64,000 bases of DNA from Microbacterium soli (GTDB lineage: Bacteria; Actinomycetota; Actinomycetes; Actinomycetales; Microbacteriaceae). Positions within the stretch are counted from its first letter, which is position 1. Every line of letters begins with the position of its first letter. The notes beneath the pieces are model-generated. The model had not been told where the DNA came from. It worked only from the letters and a program-made list of their open reading frames with translations, and did not search any database. Where the stretch lies: the NCBI RefSeq assembly GCF_039539005.1, contig NZ_BAABCP010000001.1, forward strand, positions 930,001-994,000, in the 5' to 3' direction. Below, piece after piece: positions 370 through 29,859 of the stretch. Both the position numbers and the translations under genes were made by a program.

Positions 370-1164
370 TCAGAGCAGCGTGCGCAGGGCGCGCGCCAGT
401 CCGCCCTCCTCGACGGCGTCCGTCACCTCGCCGGCGACCTGCTTGACCTCGTCCGGAGCCTGCCCCATCGCCACGGCCCTGCCGCCACCGGCGAGCGCCC
501 ACTCGAACATGCCGATGTCGTTGCGCCCGTCGCCCACGACGAGGACATCGCCGCGATCGTGACCGAGCTCGGCGCGCACGCGTTCGAGCGCGGTGCCCTT
601 GTCCACTCCCCGCGGGGCGATGTCCAGCCACGCCGTCCAGCCGATCGCATAGGACACCTCGTTGAGACCGACGGTTGCGACCAGCCGCTGGAAATCCTCC
701 TCGTCGTGGCCGGGTGAGACGACCACCACGCGGGAGACCGGGTTGGACACGAGCTCGGCGAAGTCGACCCGACGGCCGTCGTCGAGCGTCCAGTCGGCGA
801 GGACCTCCGTGTACAGGCGCTGCCCGGATTCGAGTTCCACCATGTAGCGGGCTTCGGGAAGTCTGTCGTGCAGCAGCTCGAGCACGGGTGCGGGGTCGAA
901 CACCTCGACGTGCCAGCGCGTCCACTCCTCCCCGACCCTGCGCATGATGACCGCGCCGTTGGAGCAGACCGCGAACGAGGAGGTCAGCCCGAGCGCGTCG
1001 ACGAAGCGCTGCGTTCCAGCCCAGCCGCGGCCGGTGGCCAGCATGACCTCGAACCCGACGTCGCGTGCCGCGGCGACGGCGTCGGCCACCCCGGGGCTGA
1101 GCGTCTCGTCCTGCAGGAGGATGGTGCCGTCGACGTCCAGGCCGACCAGCCCCCGCGAGCTCAC
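370..1164 (-). CDS. HAD-superfamily hydrolase (Cof-type)
   Basis: 264-aa cytosolic phosphatase of the HAD superfamily, probably acting on small phosphorylated metabolites. The nucleophile motif [11 protein letters not shown] is near the N-terminus, the Ser/Thr motif is in LATGRG, and the C-terminal acidic motif is [15 protein letters not shown]. The cap lies between motifs II and III, as in Cof/YbiV proteins. I chose the GTG at 1164 because it overlaps the serS stop codon as GTGA, giving translational coupling; an open frame continues to 1200 but would run into serS. The substrate cannot be read from sequence. Pairing with serS is common in actinobacteria (from memory). Confidence 0.9.
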
Positions 1165-2480
1165 TCCGCGACCTGCGCCGCGTCGGCGCCGTCGGACCAC
1201 CCCAGCGGATGGATCACCTCGATGCCGCCCAGGTACGGGCGCAGCACCTCCGGCACCACGACGGAGCCGTCCGGCTGCTGATGGGTCTCCAGCAGCGCGA
1301 CGATCCAGCGGGTGGTCGCCAGCGTGCCGTTGAGCGTGGCGACCGGGGTCGTCTTCGCGCCCTCCTCCGGCCGGTAGCGCACATCCAGGCGGCGGGCCTG
1401 GTAGGTCGTGCAGTTGGAGGTGGAGGTCAGCTCCCGGAAGGCGCCCTGTGTGGGCACCCAGGCCTCGATGTCGAATTTGCGCGCGGCGCTGGAACCGAGA
1501 TCCCCGGCTGCCACGTCGATCACCCGGTACGACAGACCGAGCGAGGTCAGCATCTCCTCCTGCAGGGCGACGAGCCGCTCGTGCTCGGCCTCCGCATCCT
1601 CGGGGGTCGTGTAGACGAACATCTCCAGCTTGTTGAACTGGTGCACGCGGATGATGCCGCGGGTGTCCTTGCCGTAGGACCCCGCCTCGCTGCGGTAGCA
1701 GGTGGACCAGCCCGCGTAGCGCTGCGCACCGCCGGTCAGGTCGAGGATCTCGTCCTTGTGGTAGCCGGCGAGCGGCACCTCGCTGGTGCCGACCAGGTAC
1801 AGGTCCTCCTTGTCGAGGTGATACACCTCGTCGGCGTGCTCGCCGAGGAATCCGGTGCCCTGCATGATCTCCGGACGCACCAGCGTCGGGACGATCATCG
1901 GTGTGAAGCCGTTGCGCAGCGCCTTGTCGAGCGCGAGGTTCATGAGCGCGATCTCCAGGCGCGCGCCGATGCCCTTGAGGAAGTAGAAGCGGGCCCCGGA
2001 GACCTTCACGCCGCGCTCCATGTCGATGGCGCCCAGCAGCTCGCCGATCTCGAGGTGGTCGCGCGGGCCGTCCGGATACGCCTCCGGGTCGAACGTCGGG
2101 ATCTCGCCGACCCGACGCAGCTCGACGAAATCCTCCTCGCCGCCGGCGGGAACGCCGTCGATGATGATGTTCTCGATCCTTGCGAGAGCGGATGCCGCGG
2201 CATCCGCCGCCTCGTTCGACGCCTGCTGCGCGGCCTTGACCCGCTCGGCGAGCTCCTTGGCCTGCGCGACGAGCGCGGCCTTCTCCTCCTTCGGTGCCCT
2301 GGCGACGGTCTTGCCGAAGGCGTTCTGCTCGGCGCGCAGCGACTCGAAGGCGTTCAGCGCGTCACGGCGAGATCGGTCGGCCTCGATCGCGGCGTCGACG
2401 GTCTCAGGCGCGTTCCCGCGCGCGAGCTGTGAACGACGGACGAGCTCGGGCTCGTCGCGGAGGAGGGCGAGATCGATCAT
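1161..2480 (-). CDS. serS: Serine--tRNA ligase
   Basis: 439-aa class II aminoacyl-tRNA synthetase that charges tRNA-Ser with serine in the cytosol. The N-terminal helical arm (about residues 25-105, rich in Glu/Lys/Arg/Ala) forms the antiparallel coiled coil that grips the long variable arm of tRNA-Ser. The catalytic core carries motif 2 around [14 protein letters not shown] and motif 3 around [10 protein letters not shown], with [13 protein letters not shown] upstream of it. Length is normal for the family. A TAGACT box ends 6 nt before the ATG, so the transcript is probably leaderless. The HAD gene downstream overlaps the stop by 4 nt. Confidence 0.98.
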
Positions 2481-2486
2481 TGTGCA

Positions 2487-2492
2487 AGTCTA
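2487..2492 (-). promoter_or_regulatory. -10 box of serS (leaderless)
   Basis: TAGACT on the minus strand, separated from the serS ATG by 6 nt (2481-2486). Transcription starting about 7 nt after the box would begin at the A of the start codon. There is no Shine-Dalgarno sequence, which agrees with leaderless initiation. No clear -35 is seen. Confidence 0.5.
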
Positions 2493-2632
2493 TCCAGCGG
2501 GCGTGTCGCCACCCGGCCGGGTCCGTGCCCGTGGCGCAGGGCGGCGCGGGCGCGCAGCATCCGCCCTCCCGACCGCCACCATGCCATGCCCGGGGAGCGA
2601 CGGCGTCACACCACCCGCAGGGGGTTCGGTCG

Positions 2633-2638
2633 TAGAGT
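2633..2638 (+). promoter_or_regulatory. -10 box of lipid kinase gene (leaderless)
   Basis: TAGAGT lies 6 nt upstream of the ATG at 2645, with no Shine-Dalgarno between. The 164-bp gap 2481-2644 between serS and this gene therefore holds two divergent, probably leaderless promoters. Confidence 0.45.
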
Positions 2639-2644
2639 GGCGTC

Positions 2645-3643
2645 ATGTCGGCATCCGGTGATCAGCGCAGCCACGCGGCGCTCGTGCTCAATCCGGTGAA
2701 AGTCGACGCGGAACGGCTGCGCTCCGTGCTGCGCGAGCTGTCGACCGTCCACGGCTGGGAGCCGCCGCGCTTCTACGAGACCAGCGTCGAAGATCCCGGC
2801 CAGCGGGTCACGCGCACAGCTCTCGACGAGGGGGCGACGGCAGTGCTCGCCGCCGGCGGTGACGGGACGGTGCGCGCGGTCTCCGAGGCGATGGCGGGTA
2901 CCGACGTCCCCTTCGCCGTGGTCCCCGGCGGCACCGGGAACCTCTTCGCCCGCAACCTCGGACTGCCGCTGCTGGATCCGGAGAAGGTGATGGATGCCGT
3001 CTTCACCGGCTTCACGTACCCCGTGGACATCGGCTGGGCACGGCTGGCCAGGGAGGACGGGTCGGAGACCGAGCACGGGTTCGTCGTGCTCGCGGGCATG
3101 GGCCTGGATGCCGACATGATCGCCAACACCCGTCCGGATCTGAAGAAGACCGTCGGGTGGGTGGCCTATCTGGACGGTGCGGCGCGTTCCCTGCCGGGCG
3201 CGAAGCCGTTCCGGGTCGTGTACCAGCTGGACGACGGCCGACTGCACGCGGCGAAGGTGCACAGCATGCTGTTCGCGAACTGCGGGGCGCTGCCGGGGGG
3301 CATCGCCCTCATGCCGGATGCGTCGCTGGACGACGGAACGATGGACATCGCCGTCATCCAGCCCAGCGGCCCGCTGGGCTGGCTGGGGATCTGGCGGAAG
3401 GTGTGGTGGGACAACTCGGTGCTGCGACGGTCACGGGCAGGTCGCCGGGTGCTGGAGCGCCGCGGACGGAACTCCTCGATCCGCTACCTGCGCGGGCGCA
3501 CGGCGGATGCCGCGATGGTCGCGCCCACCTCGATCGAGCTCGACGGCGACGAGCTCGGCACGGCCGTGCGGATGTCCTGCCGCATCGAGCAGGGCGGGCT
3601 GCGGATCGTCCTGCCGGAGGGCCACGACGTCTCGCGCTTCTGA
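2645..3643 (+). CDS. Diacylglycerol/lipid kinase family protein
   Basis: 332-aa protein of the DagK/YegS family, predicted to phosphorylate diacylglycerol or a related membrane lipid with ATP. The nucleotide-binding motif AAGGDGTVRAV and the second glycine motif GGTGNLFARNLGLPL, both in the N-terminal third, are diagnostic. The C-terminal half contains LDGDELGTAVRM, matching the beta-sandwich domain of the family. No membrane segment is evident, so peripheral association is likely. It is divergent from serS and convergent with the cardiolipin synthase gene, another phospholipid enzyme. Substrate specificity is not resolved. Confidence 0.9.
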   Translation: MSASGDQRSHAALVLNPVKVDAERLRSVLRELSTVHGWEPPRFYETSVEDPGQRVTRTALDEGATAVLAAGGDGTVRAVSEAMAGTDVPFAVVPGGTGNLFARNLGLPLLDPEKVMDAVFTGFTYPVDIGWARLAREDGSETEHGFVVLAGMGLDADMIANTRPDLKKTVGWVAYLDGAARSLPGAKPFRVVYQLDDGRLHAAKVHSMLFANCGALPGGIALMPDASLDDGTMDIAVIQPSGPLGWLGIWRKVWWDNSVLRRSRAGRRVLERRGRNSSIRYLRGRTADAAMVAPTSIELDGDELGTAVRMSCRIEQGGLRIVLPEGHDVSRF

Positions 3644-20712: not shown

Positions 20713-20760
20713 TTGCGCTCGGCTCCGTGGAGCGGTACAGAGCCGCCGGACAGCCGCGAG

Positions 20761-20766
20761 TAGGCT
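20761..20766 (+). promoter_or_regulatory. -10 box of ppa
   Basis: TAGGCT, 44 nt before the ppa ATG. The leader carries TGAGGAG as the ribosome-binding site, so ppa is a leadered gene. Confidence 0.35.
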
Positions 20767-20810
20767 GGTCTGCGGCATCCACCCGACATCATCTCCTGAG
20801 GAGCATCCGC

Positions 20811-21299
20811 ATGGCACATGACGCCGTCATCGAGATCCCGCGCGGCAGCCGCGTGAAGTACGAGGTCGACCACGAGACCGGTCGGGTGCACCTCGACCGC
20901 GTGCTGTACACGACCTTCGGCTACCCGGCCGACTACGGCTACTTCGACAACACGCTCGGCGAGGACGGCGACCCGCTGGACGTGCTCGTGCTGCTGGACC
21001 ACGCCATCTACCCGGGCGTCGTCGTGAACGTGCGCCCCGTCGCCGTGCTGAAGATGAGCGATGAAGCCGGCGGAGACGACAAGCTCGTCGCGGTGCTGTC
21101 GAACGACCCCCGCTGGGCGCACATCCAGGACGTCGACGACCTGGCCGAGTACACGAAGAAGGAGATCGCGCACTTCTTCGAGCACTACAAGGACCTCGAG
21201 CCGAACAAGTGGGTCAAGGTCGACGAGTGGGGGAACGCCGCCGAGGCGCAGCGCATCCTCGACGAGGCGATCGCGCGTTTCGAGGCCGAGGGCCACTGA
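20811..21299 (+). CDS. ppa: Inorganic diphosphatase
   Basis: 162-aa family I pyrophosphatase that hydrolyses PPi to phosphate and pulls biosynthetic reactions forward. The metal-binding signature EDGDPLDVLVLL is present, preceded by TTFGYPADYGYFDNT, and KDLEPNKWVKVDEWG lies near the C-terminus. Length is normal for an actinobacterial enzyme. TGAGGAG precedes the ATG at 20811 by 7 nt. A strong hairpin terminator follows at 21315-21350. Confidence 0.97.
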   Translation: MAHDAVIEIPRGSRVKYEVDHETGRVHLDRVLYTTFGYPADYGYFDNTLGEDGDPLDVLVLLDHAIYPGVVVNVRPVAVLKMSDEAGGDDKLVAVLSNDPRWAHIQDVDDLAEYTKKEIAHFFEHYKDLEPNKWVKVDEWGNAAEAQRILDEAIARFEAEGH

Positions 21300-21314
21300 G
21301 CTCTCCGCCAGACG

Positions 21315-21350
21315 GACGAAGGACCCCGGTTCGCGCCGGGGGTCTTCGTC
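21315..21350. terminator. Bidirectional hairpin terminator
   Basis: Inverted repeat GACGAAGGACCCCGG / CCGGGGGTCTTCGTC just after the ppa stop, able to form a long GC-rich stem on either strand. It lies between convergent ppa and the M23 peptidase gene and probably serves both. Confidence 0.75.
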
Positions 21351-21402
21351 GTCTGCGCCCGTTCCCTCCGCCCCGTGCCGGCCGTGTGCGGGGAGCGGAT
21401 GC

Positions 21403-22773
21403 TCAGATCGCGCCGCGCGCGACCATGAACGGGTACGGGTCGATCCGTCCGCCGTTGACGTAGACCTCGAAGTGCAGGTGGCACCCGAACGAGTTGCCGG
21501 TGTTGCCCGCGTACCCGATGACCTGACCGGCGCTGACGTACTGCCCCCAGCGCACGGCGAATCGCGCCTGGTGCCCGTACCCCGTCGCGATGCCGCCACC
21601 ATGCTGGATGCGCGTGTAGTTCCCGTAGCCGCCGTTGTAGCCCACGTAGTCGACAGTTCCGGAATGGGCCGCGTAGATCGGCACTCCGCATCCGTTGGCG
21701 ATGTCGATGCCGCCGTGGTCGCGAGACGCGCAGTAGCTGTTGCTGCACTGGACGTTGCGGCGGCCGTAGTAGGAGGTGATGCGGCCGCTCGACGGGCGCC
21801 GCCATGCTCCCGATCCGGACCCGCCGGACCCGCCCCCACCGCCGCCCCCGCTGTTGTGGTTCTTGGCGGCCTCTTCGGCGGCCTTGCGTCGGGCCTCCGC
21901 CTCGGCGGCCTCGCGGGCCTTGCGAACCTGCTCGCCCTTCTGGTAGCCGGCGACGGTCGCCGACGTGGTGTCCTTGAGGGCGGCGAGCTGGGCTTGGAGG
22001 GTGGCGAGGTTGTTCTGCTTCTCCTCGAGGGCGGCCTGCGCGGCGTCGGAGGCCTGCTGCGCCTTGACCATCTTCTCCTCGGCGATCTTCTGCAGGCGAT
22101 CGCGCTCGTCGCGCGCGCTCTTGGCCTGATCGCTGAGCGCCTGCGCGGAGTTGCGTGCGGCCGCCGCCCTGTCGGCGACGGTGCGGTTGTACTCCAGCAG
22201 CTTGTCCAGGCTGCCAAGACGCGAGAGCAGGTCGTCGGCGCCGTGCGCGGAGTCGGAGAGGAAGAGTTCGAGTGCGGCCTGGTCTCCGCCGCTGCGGTAC
22301 AGCTGGGTGGCGACCTGGCCCGCCTTACGGGCGCTCTCGTCGGCGATCCCCGCCTGCTCGTCGGCCTGCGCCTGCAGGGTGTCGGCTCGATCGACGGCCT
22401 CGAAGTACGCCTGCTGAGCCGCGAAGAACTCGTCGCCGGCGGCACGGGCGGCCTGCTCCGCGGCGGCCGCGCGCTGCGTGAGGCTCTGGATGAGGCCCTG
22501 GATGCGGGTGATCTCGGCGCCCTTGGCCGCTTCATTGGCCTTCGCGCGCTGCACGTCGTCCCAGCTGGGGTAGCCGGGTTCGGCCCGGGCGGACTGCGTG
22601 CCTGAGGAGACGCCGAACACGGTGAGGGCGATGGCGCTGAGCGCGCCGACGGTCATGGCGCTGCGGCGGGTCACCTTCGAGGACGGCCAGAGGGCGCGCC
22701 GTTCCCCGAGCGTCGGAGCGCACCCGCAGTCCTCGGATGCCGCGCGAGCATCTGCCATGGCTTCGTCGTTCAC
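21403..22773 (-). CDS. Secreted M23 peptidoglycan endopeptidase
   Basis: 456-aa predicted cell-wall hydrolase or divisome activator. A cytosolic leader of about 35 residues precedes a signal or anchor helix (RRSAMTVGALSAIALTVFGV). A long coiled coil (about residues 70-310, Ala/Glu/Gln/Lys/Arg-rich) leads to a glycine linker and a C-terminal LytM/M23 domain with HGGIDIA (HxxxD) and CHLHFEVYVNGG (HxH). Coiled-coil plus LytM is the EnvC/RipA-like plan. GTG 22773 follows GGAAGGGG; ATG 22758 is an alternative. CASRDHGG and CGVPIY cysteines could form disulfides. Confidence 0.88.
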   Translation of the reverse strand: MNDEAMADARAASEDCGCAPTLGERRALWPSSKVTRRSAMTVGALSAIALTVFGVSSGTQSARAEPGYPSWDDVQRAKANEAAKGAEITRIQGLIQSLTQRAAAAEQAARAAGDEFFAAQQAYFEAVDRADTLQAQADEQAGIADESARKAGQVATQLYRSGGDQAALELFLSDSAHGADDLLSRLGSLDKLLEYNRTVADRAAAARNSAQALSDQAKSARDERDRLQKIAEEKMVKAQQASDAAQAALEEKQNNLATLQAQLAALKDTTSATVAGYQKGEQVRKAREAAEAEARRKAAEEAAKNHNSGGGGGGGSGGSGSGAWRRPSSGRITSYYGRRNVQCSNSYCASRDHGGIDIANGCGVPIYAAHSGTVDYVGYNGGYGNYTRIQHGGGIATGYGHQARFAVRWGQYVSAGQVIGYAGNTGNSFGCHLHFEVYVNGGRIDPYPFMVARGAI

Positions 22774-22973
22774 ACGGCCCCTTCCGCCGGTTTCACAAGT
22801 GCCACACTAACAACATTCGTCACATCCGCAACAGGTATGATGCGTGCGGCGCACCGCAGGGCACAGCGTGCACCCGCGCGCACGCAGGTACAGCGCATCT
22901 TTCATCGTCCACCCGAAACGCCCGAGAGAAACGATGACCCGCCCTCGATTTCGTTTTTCGTCGGCGCGTCCCT

Positions 22974-22979
22974 TATGCT
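22974..22979 (+). promoter_or_regulatory. -10 box for tRNA-Glu-Asp-Phe cluster
   Basis: TATGCT, 37 nt before the tRNA-Glu 5' end. The surrounding stretch 22900-22980 is relatively AT-rich. No strong -35 is seen. The 243-bp gap 22774-23016 holds no other gene I can support. Confidence 0.4.
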
Positions 22980-23016
22980 TGAGCGTCGGCAAGGGAAGCC
23001 CCCAGGGACTCTCTTC

Positions 23017-23089
23017 GGCCCCATCGTTTAGCGGCCTAGGACGCCGCCCTTTCACGGCGGTAGCACGGGTTCGAATCCCGTTGGGGTCA
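23017..23089 (+). tRNA. tRNA-Glu (anticodon UUC)
   Basis: 73-nt tRNA with acceptor GGCCCCA pairing TGGGGTC (one G-U pair) and discriminator A. The anticodon loop CTTTCAC gives UUC. The T loop GGGTTCGAATCCC is canonical. It is the first of a three-tRNA cluster. Confidence 0.96.
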
Positions 23090-23115
23090 CTCATCCGATA
23101 CAATTGAAAAGTTAT

Positions 23116-23189
23116 GGCCCTGTAGCGCAGTTGGTTAGCGTGCCGCCCTGTCACGGCGGAGGTCGCGGGTTCAAGTCCCGTCAGGGTCG
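23116..23189 (+). tRNA. tRNA-Asp (anticodon GUC)
   Basis: 74-nt tRNA with acceptor GGCCCTG pairing CAGGGTC and the discriminator G expected of tRNA-Asp. The anticodon loop CTGTCAC gives GUC. It starts 26 nt after tRNA-Glu; TACAAT at 23099-23104 between them may add transcription. Confidence 0.96.
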
Positions 23190-23200
23190 CTCCATGCGGC

Positions 23201-23222
23201 GGGCCTTCTTTCGAGGAGGCCC
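23201..23222 (+). terminator. Possible terminator after tRNA-Asp
   Basis: GGGCCT ... AGGCCC inverted repeat with a 10-nt loop, followed by TTCGTCT. It is only 6 bp and has no U-tract, so it may instead be a processing hairpin between tRNA-Asp and tRNA-Phe. Confidence 0.4.
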
Positions 23223-23256
23223 TTCGTCTCGGACGCGACAGGTTCGCCGGTCGCGC

Positions 23257-23329
23257 GGCTCTGTAGCTCAGTTGGTAGAGCGTTCGACTGAAAATCGAAA
23301 GGTCACCGGATCGACGCCGGTCGGAGCCA
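23257..23329 (+). tRNA. tRNA-Phe (anticodon GAA), integration target
   Basis: 73-nt tRNA with acceptor GGCTCTG pairing CGGAGCC and discriminator A; the anticodon loop CTGAAAA gives GAA. Its 3' part from the anticodon loop onward (23287-23329) is repeated exactly at 26716-26758. The gene itself is complete, so an integrating element restored the tRNA 3' end. Confidence 0.96.
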
Positions 23330-23330
23330 C
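23287..23330 (+). repeat. attL: 3' end of tRNA-Phe
   Basis: 44-bp exact direct repeat unit, covering the anticodon loop to the acceptor end of tRNA-Phe plus one base. The second copy is at 26716-26759. Base identity stops sharply on both sides (G/A at the left, T/A at the right), as for a tyrosine-recombinase core site. Confidence 0.85.
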
Positions 23331-23333
23331 TGG

Positions 23334-23365
23334 AACCCTCGCGTAGCTTCTACATCGCGGGGGTT
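23334..23365 (+). terminator. Hairpin after tRNA-Phe (copy 1)
   Basis: AACCCTCGCG pairs with CGCGGGGGTT (10 bp, one T-G) across a 12-nt loop. A near-identical hairpin with a T-rich tail follows the second att copy at 26787-26818. Confidence 0.65.
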
Positions 23366-23445
23366 TCCGCTTTCTCCTGGTGAGGGACGGTTTCTGCGGC
23401 GCTGCAAGCTCCCGGTTGCAGAGCGAGCAATGCGAGATGAAGGGC

Positions 23446-23480
23446 CGGTCGTTGAGCGAGGGTAGCGAGACGAAACGCCC
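23446..23480. repeat. Dispersed GGTCGTTGAGCG repeat, copy 1
   Basis: About 35 bp starting GGTCGTTGAGCG and ending GCGAGACGAAACG. Two further copies are at 26857-26890 and 26900-26930. I associate this word from memory with intergenic repeats of Microbacteriaceae. Confidence 0.7.
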
Positions 23481-23520
23481 TCGCCGAGTGCGTTTGGGCC
23501 GGTCTGGGGCCGGTTCGCGG

Positions 23521-23766
23521 TCAGATTCCGTGCGTTTCGTTCCCCGGATGCACATCCGGACAATCCGCCAAGCAGCACCCGCAGATCGGGGAACCGCCCC
23601 ACCACAGATCGGCTTCATTCGCGCAACTGCACTCCTGACAGCCGCACGCCGTGCCACGAGGAGGCATTCCCTGGGCGACGCGTTGCTCATCGTCGAGATC
23701 CCCGACGAAGGTCAGGGCGTACTCCACCCCATCGAGCTCAACAGTCTCTTCCGCCTGATTTTCCAT
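23521..23766 (-). CDS. Cys-rich small protein
   Basis: 81-aa protein with an acidic N-terminal half (ENQAEETVELDGVEYALTF) and a C-terminal cluster of seven cysteines in CGCQECSC and ICGCCLADC, suggesting a zinc- or iron-binding knuckle. I recognise no family. It starts with ATG at 23766 without a clear ribosome-binding site and lies 55 bp downstream of the metallophosphoesterase on the same strand, so the two may be co-transcribed. It sits inside the tRNA-Phe element. It could be a small regulator or DNA-binding accessory, but nothing proves this. Confidence 0.55.
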   Translation of the reverse strand: MENQAEETVELDGVEYALTFVGDLDDEQRVAQGMPPRGTACGCQECSCANEADLWWGGSPICGCCLADCPDVHPGNETHGI

Positions 23767-23821
23767 GACCGTCCAGGGTCACACACGGGGGCCCGGTCGA
23801 ACCCCCTGAGCCCGGAACGCA

Positions 23822-24454
23822 TCAGAGTGATCGAAGCCACGCATCGATCGCGCTGAACGGAACCGGCTCGAACCCGAAGGCATCCACACCCACATGGAAC
23901 TCATGCGTACCGTGCGCACCGAAATCATGCTCATGCGTGTGTCCGTGGATGAGCGGGATGCCTTCGTCAGCCGGACGATGCCTGGTGTGCCGATCCGGGC
24001 CGGTCGTGTCACTGGAGTATGGGTAGTGCGAAGCGAGCAGCCGCTTGCCAGAACGAGTACCGTCGAGGAGTTCGGGAAGCACGGTCCACCCTGCCTGTTC
24101 ATACAGCGGACGGAAACGCTCGATCGCACGCTTGGACTGCGTCGCGGACGACACACGATCATGATTCCCCGGAACAAGCAGGCGCCGCCCGTTCAGCTGC
24201 GCCGTCAACCTGACACTGTCCTCAATCGGACCGAGAGCGACATCCCCCAGTTGAAGCACGACATCATCTGGACCGACGAGAGCGTTCCACCGTTCGATCA
24301 TCACGGCATTCATCTCATCCACCGACGAGAACGGACGCCCCGCCAACTCACTGATCCGCACATGACCGAAGTGATGATCACTCGTCACGAAATCGACGGC
24401 ATCGAAATCGAAACCCGACATGTCGGCAGCTACCATGCCTTTTACGTCAACCAT
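23822..24454 (-). CDS. Calcineurin-like metallophosphoesterase
   Basis: About 210-aa phosphoesterase of the type often carried by phages and mobile elements. All metal motifs are present: TSDHHFGH (DxH), LGDVALG (GDV), VPGNHDR (GNHD), SHYP and HGHTHEH. It could hydrolyse a phosphomonoester, cyclic nucleotide or nucleic-acid end; the substrate is unknown. The start is uncertain: ATG 24454 is preceded by GGAG and overlaps the stop of the small upstream ORF by 8 nt, favouring coupled translation; ATG 24436 and ATG 24421 are alternatives nearer the conserved core. Confidence 0.82.
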   Translation of the reverse strand: MVDVKGMVAADMSGFDFDAVDFVTSDHHFGHVRISELAGRPFSSVDEMNAVMIERWNALVGPDDVVLQLGDVALGPIEDSVRLTAQLNGRRLLVPGNHDRVSSATQSKRAIERFRPLYEQAGWTVLPELLDGTRSGKRLLASHYPYSSDTTGPDRHTRHRPADEGIPLIHGHTHEHDFGAHGTHEFHVGVDAFGFEPVPFSAIDAWLRSL

Positions 24455-24644
24455 TCCAGTGCGAGCTCCGCGAATCGACGCCGCGGACGAACCGGGCGAG
24501 AAGCTCACGATCATTCGCGGGCCCGCGGTCAACCCACCCGCCGGAGGCGAGATACAGAGTACGTACGTCACGATCAAGCTTGTGATCGAACCGGCTCTCT
24601 GCCGCCGCTCGGATCACCGCATAGGAACCTACCTGTGCGGACAT
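24447..24644 (-). CDS. Small ORF coupled to metallophosphoesterase
   Basis: 65-aa ORF with ATG at 24644 and its stop overlapping the first codons of the metallophosphoesterase. The sequence (QVGSYAVIRAAAESRFDHKL, then RDVRTLYLASGGWVDRGPAN) is mixed and protein-like, with a basic C-terminus. I recognise no family. The 241-bp stretch from 24645 to the AIPR start contains a GCCGGCC-TTC-GGCCGGC hairpin (24712-24728) and no convincing gene. Confidence 0.4.
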   Translation of the reverse strand: MSAQVGSYAVIRAAAESRFDHKLDRDVRTLYLASGGWVDRGPANDRELLARFVRGVDSRSSHWNG

Positions 24645-24711
24645 GCGGCCAGCACGGCCAAACGCATAGGCAGGCTCGAGCGCATGAAACCAGAACCACT
24701 GCCCTTCAAGG

Positions 24712-24728
24712 CCGGCCTTCGGCCGGCT
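24712..24728. repeat. Perfect hairpin upstream of AIPR gene
   Basis: GCCGGCC TTC GGCCGGC, a 7-bp perfect stem with a 3-nt loop, between the divergent small ORF and the AIPR gene. It could be a terminator-like or structural element; no T-tract follows. Confidence 0.45.
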
Positions 24729-24885
24729 GCGCAGTGCGCTTGACCCACCTGCGGTGCGTCCGGTCCTCGCTCCGCTGCGGTCCGGGCGCTCCTCGGCACC
24801 TCAAGCACACTGCATCAATTGCCATGGAGAGGCTCCCGAATCGAATCGCACCGCCGCGAGCCTTTCGACCGCTAGTGTGCTGTCT

Positions 24886-26586
24886 ATGCCGCTTGACCTC
24901 AGCTATCCCGCCGTGCTCGACCAGTTCGGACGACACCGCGTGCCTGGCCGAACAGACTCTCGCGCGTTTTTGGGCTGGTTCCTTGAGAACTACTTCCGGC
25001 TTGAGGCGCTCACCGTTGAAGACTCAATCTGCGACGGTCCCGACGACAAGGGCATCGACGGGATCTACGTCGATGACACGTTGGAAGTGGTCTACGTGCT
25101 TCAGGCCAAGCTCCTTCAAAACCCATCTAAGACAGTTGGCGACGGAACGCTACGAGACTTCTCGGGCGCGATCCAGCAGCTGACCACCCCAGAGGGCGTT
25201 GAAGCTGTGGCGAACTCCACGGGAAACGTGGAGCTCAAGAACCTCCTCGCGGATGCGGACGTTGCAGCAAAGGTCAAAGCCGGTTACGAGGTCCGCGGGA
25301 TCCTATTGACGAATGCTCCGCTCGACGCCAACGGCCTAAACTTCGTGGCCGCCCATGGCGCGATCACGGCATACGATGCCGATCGCCTCCAGAAGGATTG
25401 GCTCCCCCTCGGTGATACTGAGCCCGTCGAGAAGGAGGTCACATTTCACCTCGATAGCTTAGGGCACATCACCTACAAGACTGAGGCCGCAACCGCGCAC
25501 TTCGTGTCATTGCGTGGCTCCGAGCTTGTCCAGATGGCAGGTATCGAGAACCAAGCACTTTTCGCCTGGAACGTGCGCCAATCGCTCGGTCGCACCAAGG
25601 TCAACCGTGCCATCGCCTCAAACGTCCAGACGCAGCCCGAACACAAGAACTTCATGCTTTATCACAACGGTCTCACCATCCTGGCGCGCACGGTCCGCCT
25701 TGACGAGGAGAACGACACCCTCACGATCGACCAGTACAGCGTCGTGAACGGTGCTCAGAGTTTGTCGACCTTGAATGAAAAGAAGGATTCACTGAGCAAC
25801 GACCTTCGGCTTCTCGCACGGGTCGTCGAACTTGACCCGGCATCGGATCTCGCCGGGATGATCACCCGCAACAGCAACAACCAAAACTCCATCGGTGCCC
25901 GCGATCTCCAGTCAAACTCGGTAATCCAGAAGCGACTGAAAGAGGACTTCAATCGCTCCTTCGGTGACCAGTTCGACTACGAGGTGAAGCGTGGTGAGGC
26001 TTCGTCAGCGGAGCGCGTCATCACAAATGAGGACGCAGCCAAGGTTCTCCTAGCCTTCGACCTCGGGCAGCCTTGGAGCTGCCACCAGTCCTATCGGTAT
26101 TTCGATGACCTTCACGCCGACATCTTTGGTCGCCCGGTGGTTACCGCGGGGCGAATCGTTGCCCTGATCGCAGTCCGCGATGCAGCGATCGAGAGTCTCG
26201 CAGCCCTCGACAATCAGCTCGTCGCCCGTTACTCGGTTACACCGTACTTCTTGATGTACCTACTCAAGCAAGCCCTCAAGATCGATGACGTCGGCGAAGA
26301 ATTCTGCAAGGATCCCGGCGCCTTCCTTGCCGAAAAGGGCTTTGCCGCGGTCGCCGCGGTGATCAAACGTGTTACGGATGATCTTGTCGTAGATCTCAAC
26401 TCAGAGATTGAAGAGCGAGAAGAAGCCCGAAACCCGTTCGACCACAAGCGCGAACTTAAGAGCCCAACCGCGGTTCGGGCGCTAAAGCAAGCCGTGATTC
26501 CGATCTACCAGAAGGCCGTTCAGCGGAAACGCGCAACTTCATTCGCTGAGGAGTGGAACGCCGCAGAGCCGAGTGAGCCCGCGTAA
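24886..26586 (+). CDS. AIPR family abortive infection protein
   Basis: 566-aa protein of the AIPR (abortive infection phage resistance) family. The core shows NFMLYHNGLTILA, VVNGAQSLSTL and NSNNQNSIGARDLQSNS, the typical order. The N-terminal region contains KGIDGIYVDD followed 13 residues later by VLQAKL, which resembles the PD-(D/E)xK nuclease pattern (D58 ... Q73-x-K75), so DNA or RNA cleavage during infection is plausible; that is inference. I chose the ATG at 24886, where the conserved N-terminus begins; the frame is open to 24754. It is the only plus-strand gene in the element and is less GC-rich than core genes. Confidence 0.85.
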   Translation: MPLDLSYPAVLDQFGRHRVPGRTDSRAFLGWFLENYFRLEALTVEDSICDGPDDKGIDGIYVDDTLEVVYVLQAKLLQNPSKTVGDGTLRDFSGAIQQLTTPEGVEAVANSTGNVELKNLLADADVAAKVKAGYEVRGILLTNAPLDANGLNFVAAHGAITAYDADRLQKDWLPLGDTEPVEKEVTFHLDSLGHITYKTEAATAHFVSLRGSELVQMAGIENQALFAWNVRQSLGRTKVNRAIASNVQTQPEHKNFMLYHNGLTILARTVRLDEENDTLTIDQYSVVNGAQSLSTLNEKKDSLSNDLRLLARVVELDPASDLAGMITRNSNNQNSIGARDLQSNSVIQKRLKEDFNRSFGDQFDYEVKRGEASSAERVITNEDAAKVLLAFDLGQPWSCHQSYRYFDDLHADIFGRPVVTAGRIVALIAVRDAAIESLAALDNQLVARYSVTPYFLMYLLKQALKIDDVGEEFCKDPGAFLAEKGFAAVAAVIKRVTDDLVVDLNSEIEEREEARNPFDHKRELKSPTAVRALKQAVIPIYQKAVQRKRATSFAEEWNAAEPSEPA

Positions 26587-26589
26587 CCC

Positions 26590-26715
26590 TGTGCCGGTTT
26601 CGTGCCGGTAGCCCCGCTGAAACCACCCTCAACCAGCCGCGACCAACCATGACCACTTCCGCGGAATCACGCGGCAAACAGCGACCAACGAGCACCCACT
26701 GCCCCGCCGTATCCA
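26590..26715. other. Putative integrase arm-site region
   Basis: Between the AIPR stop and attR. It contains GTGCCGGT twice (about 26592-26610) and several CAACC/GACCAAC words (about 26628-26690). Such short direct repeats next to a core site are typical of tyrosine-integrase arm sites. No ORF is convincing here. Confidence 0.35.
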
Positions 26716-26759
26716 ACTGAAAATCGAAAGGTCACCGGATCGACGCCGGTCGGAGCCAC
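26716..26759 (+). repeat. attR: second copy of tRNA-Phe 3' end
   Basis: Exact 44-bp copy of 23287-23330 without the 5' half of a tRNA, so it cannot encode a functional tRNA. It marks the distal end of the inserted segment. Confidence 0.85.
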
Positions 26760-26786
26760 ACGGGTGATCGTTACAATCATCCCAGG

Positions 26787-26818
26787 AACCCTCGCGTAGC
26801 TTCTACATCGTGAGGGTT
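26787..26818 (+). terminator. Hairpin after attR (copy 2)
   Basis: AACCCTCGCG pairs with CGTGAGGGTT and is followed by TTTT. The 26 bp at 26785-26810 are identical to 23332-23357. Relative to the core site it is displaced by about 25 bp that are absent from the first copy. Confidence 0.65.
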
Positions 26819-26856
26819 TTGCTTTGCCCTGGCGAGGGGCAATTTCGGCGGCCTTC

Positions 26857-26890
26857 GGTCGTTGAGCGAACGCAGCGAGACGAGACGCCC
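26857..26890. repeat. Dispersed GGTCGTTGAGCG repeat, copy 2
   Basis: GGTCGTTGAGCG followed by AACGCAGCGAGACGAGACG; it differs from copy 3 at a few positions. It lies directly upstream of copy 3. Confidence 0.7.
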
Positions 26891-26899
26891 CCGCACCCC

Positions 26900-26930
26900 G
26901 GTCGTTGAGCGAGCGAAGCGAGACGAAACG
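26900..26930. repeat. Dispersed GGTCGTTGAGCG repeat, copy 3
   Basis: GGTCGTTGAGCG followed by AGCGAAGCGAGACGAAACG, in tandem with copy 2. From here to 27227 (about 300 bp) I see no gene; the stretch is less GC-rich and looks like accessory DNA. Confidence 0.7.
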
Positions 26931-27227
26931 CATCCCTCGACGAGGCTCACGCCAGTAAGCGCGACCACCAGCACCACAGATTCAACCACCGGCGGCAACC
27001 CATTTAAGCTCTTATCTGGGTTATCGTTTTGCTACGGCGGGCAGTAGCCCTCGGAGCCTGGCAGTCTTCCGGACGGTATGACGAGCCAAGCTCACGTATT
27101 TCTACAGCCGAGTCACGCGAGACTCGATGATCGCCTCCGCTCGGCGGATCCAGTCCCCTCCACGTGCGCCCGGCGCGAATAAGTGACTATTGCATATCCT
27201 TCCGCCGAGCCCATGCGGAGCGTAGGC

Positions 27228-27262
27228 TTTCTGTATGAATAACTAAGTTACTCATACAGAAA
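27228..27262. promoter_or_regulatory. 35-bp near-palindrome upstream of fic
   Basis: TTTCTGTATGA (27228-27238) and TCATACAGAAA (27252-27262) are perfect 11-bp inverted arms; the centre ATAACTAAGTTAC is also nearly symmetric. A TAGGCT box at 27223-27228 abuts the left arm and the fic ribosome-binding site AAGGGG touches the right arm. This is the geometry of an operator that would block both transcription start and translation. An obvious candidate ligand is the winged-helix C-terminus of the Fic protein itself (inference). Confidence 0.7.
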
Positions 27263-27275
27263 GGGGTGGGCGTGT

Positions 27276-28439
27276 ATGAGTAATGCCGCAACATCGTGGC
27301 CGGCTCTCGAATGGGAGAGCCAGGTGTGGCTGCCCACGACGGGCTTCGGCGGTGGCCGATACAAGGCAGCGGTGCCACCACTCATCGCCATGCTGACGCC
27401 GCAGCCATCCGCCGAGGCGGCAGAGGCAGCGTCCACCGCCGCGAATGCGTTGAGCAGGTTCGATGCAGAGCTTGGTCATCGAGTCGCCGCTTTCGCTCCC
27501 GTTCTCCTCCGTTCAGAGTCCGCGTCCTCGTCTCGGATAGAGAACCTGACCGCCAGTGCCCGCGCGATCTTCAGTGCAGAGCTCGGCGCCAAGGGCAGCC
27601 GGAATGCGGAGTTGATCGCGGCCAACACGCAATCGTTGCAAGCCGCACTCAACCTGAGCGCAGGCCTTTCCTCCGATGCGATCCGTGACATGCACCGCAT
27701 ACTCATGGCTGGGCAGCCGCGCCACACTCCCGGCGAATGGCGCGACCAGGCGGTATGGATCGGCACCCGGGCAGACAGCCCGATAGGTGCGGATTACGTA
27801 GCCCCCGATCACGTCCGCATCCCCGCGTTCATCACCGATCTCGTCGCCTTTGCGACGCGCCACGACCTTGCTCCTCTGACTGCTGTCGCGGTGGCTCACG
27901 CGCAGTTCGAGACGATCCACCCGTTCAGCGACGGCAATGGGCGAACCGGCCGCGCACTTGCGCAAGCAGTGCTGCGCCATCGCGGAGTGACTGAGAACGT
28001 GGCAGTGCCGGTCTCGGCTGGACTGCTGGCAGATGTCGAGGGATACCACCAGGCGCTGACGGCCTATCGGGCAGGAGACGTGTCCCCCATCGTGCTGGCC
28101 TTCGCGAACGCCTCCATGAGGGCGGTGTCGAACGCGCGGCGACTCATCGCCGACATCGACGAGATCCAACGCTCATGGGCCACTCGGTTGACGGTACGGC
28201 GTTCAAGCAACGCGTGGAGGCTTCTGGACATCGTCGCCCGCAGACCGGTGCTTGACGCCGTCACCGCCGCCCGAGAACTGGGCGTCCAGCGCCCCAACGC
28301 CTACCCACCACTTCAAGCGCTTGTCGACGCCGGCATCCTGACCGCGAAAGCGGAACGGCCGTTCTGGCGAAGCACCGAGATCCTCGGAGCAATCGACGCG
28401 TTCGCCGAACGGGCCGGGCGGCGCGAGATGCCTCGATGA
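27276..28439 (+). CDS. Fic-domain AMPylase with C-terminal winged helix
   Basis: 387-aa Fic/DOC-family protein that would transfer AMP (or another phosphate-containing group) from a nucleotide onto a hydroxyl of a target protein. The active-site motif HPFSDGNGRTGR (residues 215-226) is intact. The N-terminal inhibitory motif (S/T)xxxE(G/N) appears as SSRIEN (residues 85-90), making it a class II, self-inhibited Fic. The last about 80 residues look like a winged helix (LLDIVARRPVLDAVTAAREL and so on). AAGGGG lies 9 nt before the ATG. It sits just outside attR, next to an ATPase pseudogene. Confidence 0.92.
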   Translation: MSNAATSWPALEWESQVWLPTTGFGGGRYKAAVPPLIAMLTPQPSAEAAEAASTAANALSRFDAELGHRVAAFAPVLLRSESASSSRIENLTASARAIFSAELGAKGSRNAELIAANTQSLQAALNLSAGLSSDAIRDMHRILMAGQPRHTPGEWRDQAVWIGTRADSPIGADYVAPDHVRIPAFITDLVAFATRHDLAPLTAVAVAHAQFETIHPFSDGNGRTGRALAQAVLRHRGVTENVAVPVSAGLLADVEGYHQALTAYRAGDVSPIVLAFANASMRAVSNARRLIADIDEIQRSWATRLTVRRSSNAWRLLDIVARRPVLDAVTAARELGVQRPNAYPPLQALVDAGILTAKAERPFWRSTEILGAIDAFAERAGRREMPR

Positions 28440-28538
28440 CACTGCGAGAGCTGTGAGAACATTCTTTGCGCATTCAAGGCGCGCCTCCGGCTGACCGCGC
28501 CCTCTGCCGACGCGGCGCAGGCCAGATATGGTTGCCGT

Positions 28539-29016
28539 ATGAAGCAACTGGGCCGTACCGCCGACTCCGTATTCGGCGTCAGCAGCGACGTCAACCCCGA
28601 GTCGTATGTCGACCGTGCGGGCTCGGCTCAAAGGTAAGGCGTGAGCTGGACCGATCCCAGCGTCATATCTCGCTCGTAGGCCCATCAAAAAGCAGAAGAT
28701 CGTGGCTCAGGCAGAAGATGATCCCCCAGGGGATCATCGTTCAGTGCCGACACGGCAAGACGGTCGATGACATTTACCGCGAGGCTCTCGGCTCCCTGGG
28801 GATTGAGCTCACCTTAAAGAAGACAACATCTGACAGTGAAGAGCATCCTCACCAAATTGGACCAGCTTCAGGTCGACTCCGATGGGCGCGGACTGGTCGT
28901 TAGTTACGATGAGTCGCGAGAGCAGGTCTTCCTGGTTGATCGGCAGCTCCTCCTTTGCAGAGCATTCTCGACAGTCCGATGGTCCTGGGGTGACCTCCTT
29001 GCGGAGGCGATGCTGG
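28539..29016 (+). pseudogene. Degraded P-loop (AAA/STAND-like) ATPase
   Basis: Three pieces in order look like one protein. ATG 28539 starts KQLGRTADSVFGVSSDVNPE and hits a stop after a probable 2-nt insertion near 28617. The next frame continues GLGSKVRRELDRSQRHISLV with a P-loop changed to GPSKSRRSW, where GPSKSGKSW is expected, and QCRHGKTVDDIYREALGSLG. After about 28830 a third frame gives KLDQLQVDSDGRGLVVSYDE and VDRQLLLCRAFSTVRW, which resembles the C-terminal end of such proteins. The central part is missing, indicating a large internal deletion. Joining the pieces is inference from their look. Confidence 0.55.
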
Positions 29017-29049
29017 CAAGGACCGCTGCGGTTCGCTTCATCATCCGCA

Positions 29050-29859
29050 TCATGACACCGTCACCGACAGTTCGACGGCATAGTCATCAGCGCTCTGACC
29101 GATGACCGTCTGACGCACCTCGACATCACCGAGTTCGACCCCGCGTTCGGCGATCGCGTCGAAGAGCCCGACGGCTGCGGGATGCAGTGCCCCCTCAGGC
29201 GGCTCTTCTCCGTCGACCGGACGCCACGTCGCCACGAGCTCCGTCCGGGCGGGGAGCTCGGCGGAGAAGCTCTCGGATCCACGCGCCTCCTCGGGCACAT
29301 GGGACGCGGTCGGCCAGCAGCACACCACCTCGATGGTTCCTCGATCACCGGCTCGCAATGTAAGCCAGAACGGCCCGCTGGGGCCGGCGCCTGCGGCCTG
29401 GAGCCGTGCGAACAGCGCACCCAGCACCGCGTTCGCATCGTCATCCGAGACAGCGCCGGCATCGTCGACCGGAGCAGTGATGGCCTGCCCGACGAAGTGC
29501 TGGACCAGCATCGACCGCTCGCTGACGTTCACCGGGACGGCCAGCGCACGCAGCATCCGCGCGGCATCGTGGAACGCACGATCCTCGCGTTCCCGCTGCT
29601 CGAGGACACGGACCCGATGAGCGGCGAGTGCTTGCTCGGCGTCCCCTCCCGCGATCGCAGTGGATGCCTCCGGCAGCGGCACCCCGGCGTCCCGCAGCGC
29701 GCGGATCACCACACCCGCCCGCACCTGACTCTCGGCGTACAGCCGATACCCCGAGCGGTCATCCACATCCGCGGGGACGAGCGCGCCCGTCTCGTCGTAG
29801 TGACGAAGAGCCTTCACGCTCAGCCCGGTCAATCCTGCGAACTCCCCGATCTTCAACAT
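29050..29859 (-). CDS. MerR-family regulator with GyrI-like domain
   Basis: 269-aa transcription regulator. The N-terminal MerR winged helix is clear: MLKIGEFAGLTGLSVKALRH followed by YDETGALVPADVDDRSGYR. A linking coiled coil (about residues 75-105) leads to a C-terminal effector-binding domain of the GyrI-like type (about residues 115-269) that probably senses a hydrophobic or cationic small molecule. No neighbouring efflux or target gene is evident; the next gene upstream on this strand is 241 bp away. It marks the return to core-like base composition after the accessory region. Confidence 0.85.
   Translation of the reverse strand: MLKIGEFAGLTGLSVKALRHYDETGALVPADVDDRSGYRLYAESQVRAGVVIRALRDAGVPLPEASTAIAGGDAEQALAAHRVRVLEQREREDRAFHDAARMLRALAVPVNVSERSMLVQHFVGQAITAPVDDAGAVSDDDANAVLGALFARLQAAGAGPSGPFWLTLRAGDRGTIEVVCCWPTASHVPEEARGSESFSAELPARTELVATWRPVDGEEPPEGALHPAAVGLFDAIAERGVELGDVEVRQTVIGQSADDYAVELSVTVS

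Follow-up and report, generated by a model that had tools for sequence, protein, structure and literature searches.

A probable non-autonomous derivative of a pSAM2-type integrative and conjugative element at the tRNA-Phe gene of Microbacterium soli

Background

How does a piece of DNA flanked by the marks of site-specific recombination into a tRNA gene come to hold no recombinase, and can it still move? The question is raised by a 3.4-kb element at the tRNA-Phe gene of Microbacterium soli, which lies in a stretch of 64,000 nucleotides (positions 930,001 to 994,000 of the forward strand of contig NZ_BAABCP010000001.1, NCBI RefSeq assembly GCF_039539005.1), referred to here as the window. The original prediction, made from the letters of the window alone, saw an exact 44-bp repeat of the tRNA 3' end around less GC-rich DNA with accessory genes, and proposed either a minimal element mobilised in trans or a remnant whose integrase has been deleted. 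By comparison with related genomes we find that the element is very probably a non-autonomous derivative of a pSAM2-type actinomycete integrative and conjugative element (AICE) integrated at tRNA-Phe, similar in kind to a cis-mobilizable element (CIME). Below, G000 denotes the genome holding the window, other G numbers its relatives, and L numbers their loci.

An insertion at tRNA-Phe

Repeat comparison of the window confirmed the direct repeat: the two att cores agree at 44/44 positions and span positions 31-74 of tRNA-Phe (Table 1). ARAGORN recognises a single complete tRNA-Phe in the window and calls no tRNA at the second copy, which is therefore a 3' fragment of the gene; duplication of the tRNA gene as the source of the repeat is rejected on the same ground. 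The predicted site-specific integration is borne out by G347, in which the site is uninterrupted. Window positions 20757-23381 align to 800-3469 of its locus L235 (81.5%), while positions 26716-26832, from attR onward, align to the tRNA-Phe 3' end and the DNA that follows it (3352-3468; 92.3%). The profile of the element's arms described below matches only the tRNA core there, and the site is followed by a Fic gene and then by what we take to be a dGTPase-like gene, in the same order as behind the window attR. Thus, the window element is an insertion, and at least one strain lacks it. Similarly, in G029, from another clade, the DNA seen behind attR of G071 and G141 sits close behind the tRNA (74%). 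In the close relative G030 the contig ends 46 bp past the match to the tRNA region. The lower G+C expected of the bracketed DNA holds inside the element (0.56-0.64 in 500-base steps, against mostly 0.65-0.77 outside) but does not mark its limits, as the dip begins already in the tRNA cluster and continues to about 29 kb.

Derivation from a pSAM2-type AICE

No PF00589 match of G000 lies inside the element, tblastn with two related integrases against 23-30 kb gave nothing better than E 0.03, and comparison with Tra and Rep at E 1e-4 recovered no match. Along with profile and homology comparisons with related AICEs, by which Int, Xis, RepSA and Tra are all absent from the element, these searches sustain the earlier claim that it holds no recombinase, excisionase or replication gene. 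The accessory genes claimed for it are likewise present, in the form of members of families F14 and F8, a truncated F26 gene and an AIPR-family cargo gene.

The same parts recur in long elements that retain a full backbone. In G099 the order is tRNA-Phe, F14, F8, Int, an Xis-like gene, RepSA, FtsK-type Tra, a Pra-like gene, a structured element, cargo and right arm, and the products include Int (PF00589), RepSA (PF20199, E 8.5e-149) and an FtsK/SpoIIIE-type Tra, besides a GntR regulator and a protein that resembles Xis below cut-off. A further protein, of 132 aa, we take to resemble Pra, no library model having matched it. Pra is described as an activator of repSA, int and xis (PMC8584621). 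F26 precedes Int in G338 and G159, G071 combines the window gene order with a C-terminal Int fragment, and the window right arm is 72-94% identical to the arms of AICEs and short elements. As in relatives an integrase comes after these left-end genes, between matching ends, the second of the two proposals, a remnant whose integrase was deleted, gains support.

The point of deletion can be placed. The F26 remnant aligns with residues 34-119 of the 120-aa G338 protein (52% identity, E 8e-28) and is broken at residue 34, where the TTCAAGG of the structured element starts, with GCCTTGA common to both. Comparison of the junction sequences (F26 of G338, GCCTTGAGGAGCAGTGG; minus strand of the structured site, GGCCTTGAACGAG; window, GGCCTTGAAGGGCAGTGG) indicates that the deletion used a microhomology of about 7 nt beside the putative nick, with loss of the half that holds the nick site. 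In the scheme we propose, an AICE of the G099, G338 or G159 kind would have lost its Int-Xis-RepSA-Tra block through this GCCTTGA microhomology, perhaps by faulty rolling-circle replication, of which the position next to the putative nick site is suggestive. This would have left the left end, accessory genes, part of an origin-like hairpin, the AIPR cargo and the right end. The ends might still be recognised by the integrase of a visiting AICE, in trans or, after accretion, in cis, and the cargo would be selected as phage defence.

The insertion, the ends matching those of AICEs, the absent block, the truncated F26 at the junction and the uninterrupted relative can be read from the compared sequences. 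Several points weigh against the derivation built on them. No relative was found with an identical element plus Int, so that the parent is deduced from shared modules; an ordinary chromosomal microhomology deletion would give an identical junction; and a left-arm-like repeat stands about 200 bp behind tRNA-Phe in G347, so that what is seen there may be left over from an older element instead of being a virgin site. Further, among the aligned copies of the structured site only that of the window has an endpoint at TTCAAGG, which limits the suggestion of faulty rolling-circle replication.

Short elements across the genus

A query of the right arm plus core (172 nt) matched 361 of 366 genomes of the genus, mostly through the tRNA core alone; the right arm proper occurs in at least 83 places in at least 76 genomes by manual count of the match table, arm counts being lower bounds with two candidates scored per genome. 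We examined stretches around 80 of the 83 arm places (all but those of G140, G037 and G279) and around other second copies of the tRNA end. Of 100 loci searched with an arm profile 84 were kept, and for 60 spans the bounding tRNA lies within the stretch itself: tRNA-Phe for 49 and tRNA-Met for 11, the latter with the same arm type and a different core; longer elements are missed because the stretches extend to at most 20 kb. After three overlapping tandem-array spans had been dropped there remained 57 bounded elements: 37 are shorter than 8 kb, and all of these lack an intact Int, whereas in 17 of the 20 longer ones a match covers 75% or more of Int, a contrast that is descriptive, since the 8-kb limit was set after the lengths had been seen and length partly follows from presence of the block. 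Two of the 17 long-element genes, in G191 and G198, have stops. The sole Int match of the short class, in G071, is without its N-terminal ~78 residues, and a profile search of 2836 stop-to-stop frames (at least 40 aa) from 39 short elements, as counted before overlap removal, found an integrase nowhere else (next best E 0.07). None of these 39 has an Xis or Rep match; a third of Tra is left in two, Pra is matched in five and the metallophosphoesterase in three, and F26 is kept by the window element alone.

Tandem arrays occur in G006, G118 and G114. At L187 (G171) there is a 321-bp element with little beyond left end, right arm and core. Descent of all short elements from one ancestral short lineage is rejected because the arms of the short and Int-bearing classes intermix in the tree. 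The tRNA-Phe gene is also used otherwise: L039 (G062) is a 1.97-kb element whose integrase is a different one (about 30-35% identical) and whose ends do not match the present arm type, and tRNA-Phe loci of G052, G083 and G050 (L090, L094, L097, L100, L101, L104) have second 3' copies 20-42 kb downstream that lack the present arm type, apparently marking other element families.

Retained ends and a structured site

The right arm bears a direct repeat of the form GTGCCGGT-N3-GTGCCGGT, and a similar repeat lies in the left arm, mostly at +165 to +200. The latter scores at least 14/16 in 35/49 tRNA-Phe elements (one of the 35 being the 321-bp element of G171, which holds the right-arm copy only) as against 0/285 internal control windows, where the highest score is 13. 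At arm columns conserved above 80%, the matched fraction is 0.931 for the 13 Int-class arms, among them the outer one in the G006 tandem, as against 0.909 for 32 short-class arms (permutation p 0.27), a retention that is partly ascertained because the elements were found via the right arm; the window arm matches 0.98 of these columns. The att cores are comparable in 43/49 tRNA-Phe elements, five short spans and G191 being too divergent. They are identical over 43 nt in 17/29 short elements versus 10/11 of the Int class, and the attR core is mutated in 12/29 versus 1/11, so that short elements look older on average; outside this tally stand the G006 outer span, with 7 mismatches, and two long elements without Int, G011 and G178, with none. 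In the window the cores are identical, and the arm repeats and right arm are intact by sequence. A phage collection compared with the right arm gave one record, matching at the tRNA core only.

The structured site, of about 170 nt, comprises a conserved GTGAGAACTTTCTTTACTCGTTCAAG, a hairpin, a variable stem and a near-invariant apical block CTGCGGTGCGTCCGGTCCTCGCTCCGCTGCGGTCCGGGCGCTCCTCG, and includes GAACTTTCTTTACTCGTTCAAG. Blastn and a covariance model found it once in G000, apart from 28446-28502, where a degenerate piece of 57 nt lies. When it is scored by a profile made from 37 of its own copies, completeness being set at 100 bits or more, it is complete in 18/18 Int-class elements (the 17, plus G300 with its 15% Int fragment) and in 19/37 short ones, window copy included; nine further short elements score 25-100 bits, nine give nothing, and both long Int-less elements lack it. 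All 47 matches in bounded elements have the same orientation relative to the tRNA. RNAalifold predicts 21 pairs, two with double changes, one being C-G to G-C in four sequences, and, with most columns invariant, its term for covariation comes close to zero. The variable stem pairs better within copies than between them (mean 10.2 versus 5.9), exceeding the 99th percentile of cross-pairings in 20/46 copies (10/19 short, 6/18 Int class and 4/9 of unresolved class).

Among 199 genomes of the family, searched with filters that lose weak matches, the site occurs in four: G000, G034 and two of other genera. It stands near RepSA/Tra genes in three genera. The two other-genus copies are near AICE genes in stretches whose sole tRNAs are tRNA-Thr and tRNA-Arg; Int is 27-30% identical and no such arms are present, yet Rep is 51-52% and Tra 47-51% identical, which indicates that the site follows Rep/Tra and not the present Int and att. 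Its CTTTCTTTACTCG is similar to the pC194 nick region quoted in PMC5037232, read as the reverse complement, and PMC3218068 reports an assignment of pSAM2 to the pC194 family by motifs and nick site. We regard it as a putative rolling-circle origin (double-strand origin plus hairpin), the clt locus of Tra being the less likely reading. For these AICEs it offers a candidate origin of replication, or transfer locus, that can be tested. A plasmid collection searched with the copy of G555 gave one partial match only, in Gluconobacter.

Can the short elements move?

G000 has no Int of the present family, that is, no resident helper integrase. A resident helper is rejected also among its six PF00589 matches, of which four are at most about 30% identical to three family Ints and the two best look like Xer. 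The cis sites of the window are incomplete, with complete att ends and a structured element lacking the part before TTCAAGG.

That the short class is inert wreckage has in our estimate close to an even chance: AICEs would arrive often and shed a costly core, and the rest would persist while its defence cargo is useful, the ends being functionless leftovers. Decay intermediates fit this, since G006 and G191 keep Int/Xis without full Rep/Tra and the Int genes of G300 and G071 are reduced as described; Int of G130, like that of G191 and G198, contains stops, the Pra copies of G100, G326 and G137 look broken, and the higher frequency of mutated attR cores points the same way. Wreckage accounts less readily for arms and variable stems that are not clearly worse in the short class, for identical cores in 17/29 short elements, and for the many that keep both ends without any tested backbone gene.

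A self-sustaining class that keeps cis sites only (both att arms and the rolling-circle origin) and depends on passing AICEs for excision, replication and transfer, akin to the minimal element of the original prediction, is a serious possibility, if short of probable. It would explain 37 elements without an intact Int beside 17 Int-bearing ones among 20, with arms similarly conserved, 19/37 structured elements complete by score and variable stems still paired. The two classes have cargo in common, as in the 3985 bp that G114 and G208 share at 85%, and G071 and G141, 97-98% identical on both flanks, hold short elements of different gene content; this pair is not among the best 40 Int-less pairs by shared sequence, the 40th sharing 203 bp. 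Against such satellites stand the ascertainment via the right arm, the mutated attR cores, the nine short elements without a structured element, and the missing nick-site half of the window copy. Moreover, the Int family is present in only 29/366 genomes (E up to 1e-60), and among hosts of bounded short elements only in G130 (with a stop) and G071 (truncated), while the inner tandem element of G006 has Int. The Tra'-Pra remnant shared by G164 and G326 at 92% is no proof of a short-only lineage crossing hosts, as AICE G194 shares it at 91-92%. Pra as a helper-switch kept by short elements is rejected as a general device, since among the copies read that of G077 looks whole but the three named above look broken. 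The short class may, as far as sequence can tell, consist of trans-dependent AICE satellites.

More tentatively still, we envisage a large class of such satellites without movement genes, in which three kinds of cis site (the left and right att arms and the hairpin of the rolling-circle origin or transfer locus) surround exchangeable phage-defence cargo and which would ride on the integrase, replicase and double-stranded DNA translocase of AICEs in trans, arising repeatedly, partly by replication errors at the origin. Defence genes would thereby be packed into minimal movable units, down to the arms-only shell of G171. Exchange of cargo by homologous recombination between conserved ends or flanks, with no integrase, is improbable: the conserved left tRNA-Glu-Asp-Phe cluster and the arms supply homology, and the elements of G114 and G249, unrelated in their left halves, agree at 82.5% over a right half of 2.1 kb that takes in the right arm, but few locus pairs share at least 400 bp of right flank behind attR, which makes exchange across both flanks hard for most hosts, and, compared with the uninterrupted alleles of G347 and G029, the inserted DNA starts at the tRNA 3' end.

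Cargo and other features

Besides the AICE-derived parts, the window element carries as cargo the AIPR gene, likely a phage-defence gene, whose product has an N-terminal Mrr_cat-like stretch just below cut-off. One relative, in Salinicola socius (38%), was found in the named genome collection by a scan that requires exact peptide words. For the short class we scanned 113 of 147 called proteins from 35 elements, hand-picked and mostly of at least 150 aa, leaving out G089 with its insertion-sequence-like genes; G171 has no proteins. Among the 25 Pfam families listed of 86 (raw counts) are GmrSD_N, AAA_15 and AAA_21 (6 proteins each), SIR2_2 and Fic (3 each), AIPR and ThsB_TIR (2 each) and several DNA methylases; rve transposase domains occur in 4 short-element proteins. 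The 25 PADLOC models listed of 634 include NsnB, PtuA, AriA, GajA, AbiLi and HEC/PDC candidates, many models probably matching the same ATPases. AICEs with defence-associated nuclease genes are reported in PMC11706625. The short element L048 (G089) has two 411-aa genes alike in the residues compared, likely a transposase pair.

Table 1. Features of the element and its flanks, in window coordinates
Feature	Position	Strand	Remarks
tRNA-Phe (GAA), integration target	23257..23330	+	ARAGORN, Rfam RF00005; 3' 44 nt (23287-23330) = attL core
Terminator-like hairpin at element left end, behind tRNA-Phe	23332..23366	+	35 bp; 94% copy behind attR, 26785-26819
Left-arm direct repeat GGGCCGGTCTGGGGCCGGT, putative integrase arm-type site	23496..23514	+	Score 16/16
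81-aa Cys-rich protein, AICE accessory family F14	23521..23766	-	Homologue adjoins tRNA-Phe in AICE G099; no known family
Metallophosphoesterase-like protein, AICE accessory family F8	23822..24454	-	Metallophos_2 below cut-off; start codon by codon score
5'-truncated F26 accessory-gene remnant	24453..24710	-	Deletion junction at right end
Structured element, putative rolling-circle origin or transfer locus	24703..24832	+	Portion before TTCAAGG absent
AIPR-family protein, 566 aa, cargo	24886..26586	+	PF10592 E 7.6e-28; AbiU-like PADLOC E 3.8e-27
Conserved right arm, ~125 bp	26588..26715	+	Direct repeat GTGCCGGTTTCGTGCCGGT at 26591-26609
attR core, 44-bp copy of tRNA-Phe 3' end	26716..26759	+	Repeat search
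Hairpin and terminator behind attR	26760..26832	+	Adjoins tRNA-Phe directly in G347, the pre-insertion arrangement

Relatives of the metallophosphoesterase occur in 57/366 genomes of the genus, many away from tRNA-Phe among the matches listed; it is perhaps an accessory gene of further AICEs too. A search of 23200-26900 against Rfam (E up to 1) found no known RNA family besides tRNA. The repeat CGGTCGTTGAGCGA...GAGACGA stands in or beside the element at 23446-23484, 26856-26894 and 26899-26937, and also in some related loci. The low-GC tract behind attR (26760-29050), with a SoFic-type Fic gene (27276-28439) and the degenerate structured-site copy, probably represents remains of older elements at the same site; a piece of about 130 bp in it (27033-27161) recurs in tRNA-Met-type loci and G089 (L159, L168, L179, L180, L048).

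Comparison with known systems

The parent family of the window element, the pSAM2-type AICEs, is described in PMC3218068 as having Int, Rep, FtsK-type Tra and a 3' tRNA target; the window element has none of the three proteins and is thus not itself an AICE, nor is it an integrative and mobilizable element (IME), which encodes its own excision and integration. The principle of such derivatives is already covered by known systems, although searches of open-licence PMC papers on such islands in this kind of genus, AICE remnants, CIMEs, islands without integrase moved in trans and non-autonomous AICEs listed no title naming the present one. PMC3218068 also reports remnant AICEs without tra or rep in Frankia. 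In Streptomyces, defective AICEs (DAICEs) are presented as AICEs that lack functions and are thought to be helper-mobilizable, likely in tandem (PMC9513070, which also mentions a conserved remnant without traB between repeats); the DAICEs of that paper keep traB, whereas the window element keeps no Int, Rep or Tra. At the ssrA gene of Dehalococcoides there are 31 islands, 15 without an integration module, which their authors suggest are cis-mobilizable elements (PMC3146451). The present class resembles them in its many islands at one RNA gene, part of them without an integration module, and differs in that those involve serine recombinases and dehalogenase genes, while here the AICE family has a tyrosine integrase, and its arms and a structured cis site were compared as well.

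With CIMEs, as defined in PMC5704250, the window element shares the loss of integration and transfer genes with attL and attR kept, as predicted from sequence, and the tandem arrays of its relatives are what accretion next to related elements would give. Derivation from an integrative and conjugative element or an IME, which belongs to that definition, is indicated in the window by the shared ends, F8, F14, the truncated F26 and the partial structured element. Searches for mobile islands are usually led by the integrase, and most of the bounded elements at a single tRNA gene would here escape them. If movement in trans is true, they would be a concrete vehicle for small actinobacterial defence islands, for whose spread cis sites alone would suffice. 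Unlike CIMEs, the present class derives from AICEs, with transfer as double-stranded DNA and a rolling-circle replicon; across the genus it outnumbers the Int-bearing bounded elements, and it often combines defence-type cargo with an origin-like site.

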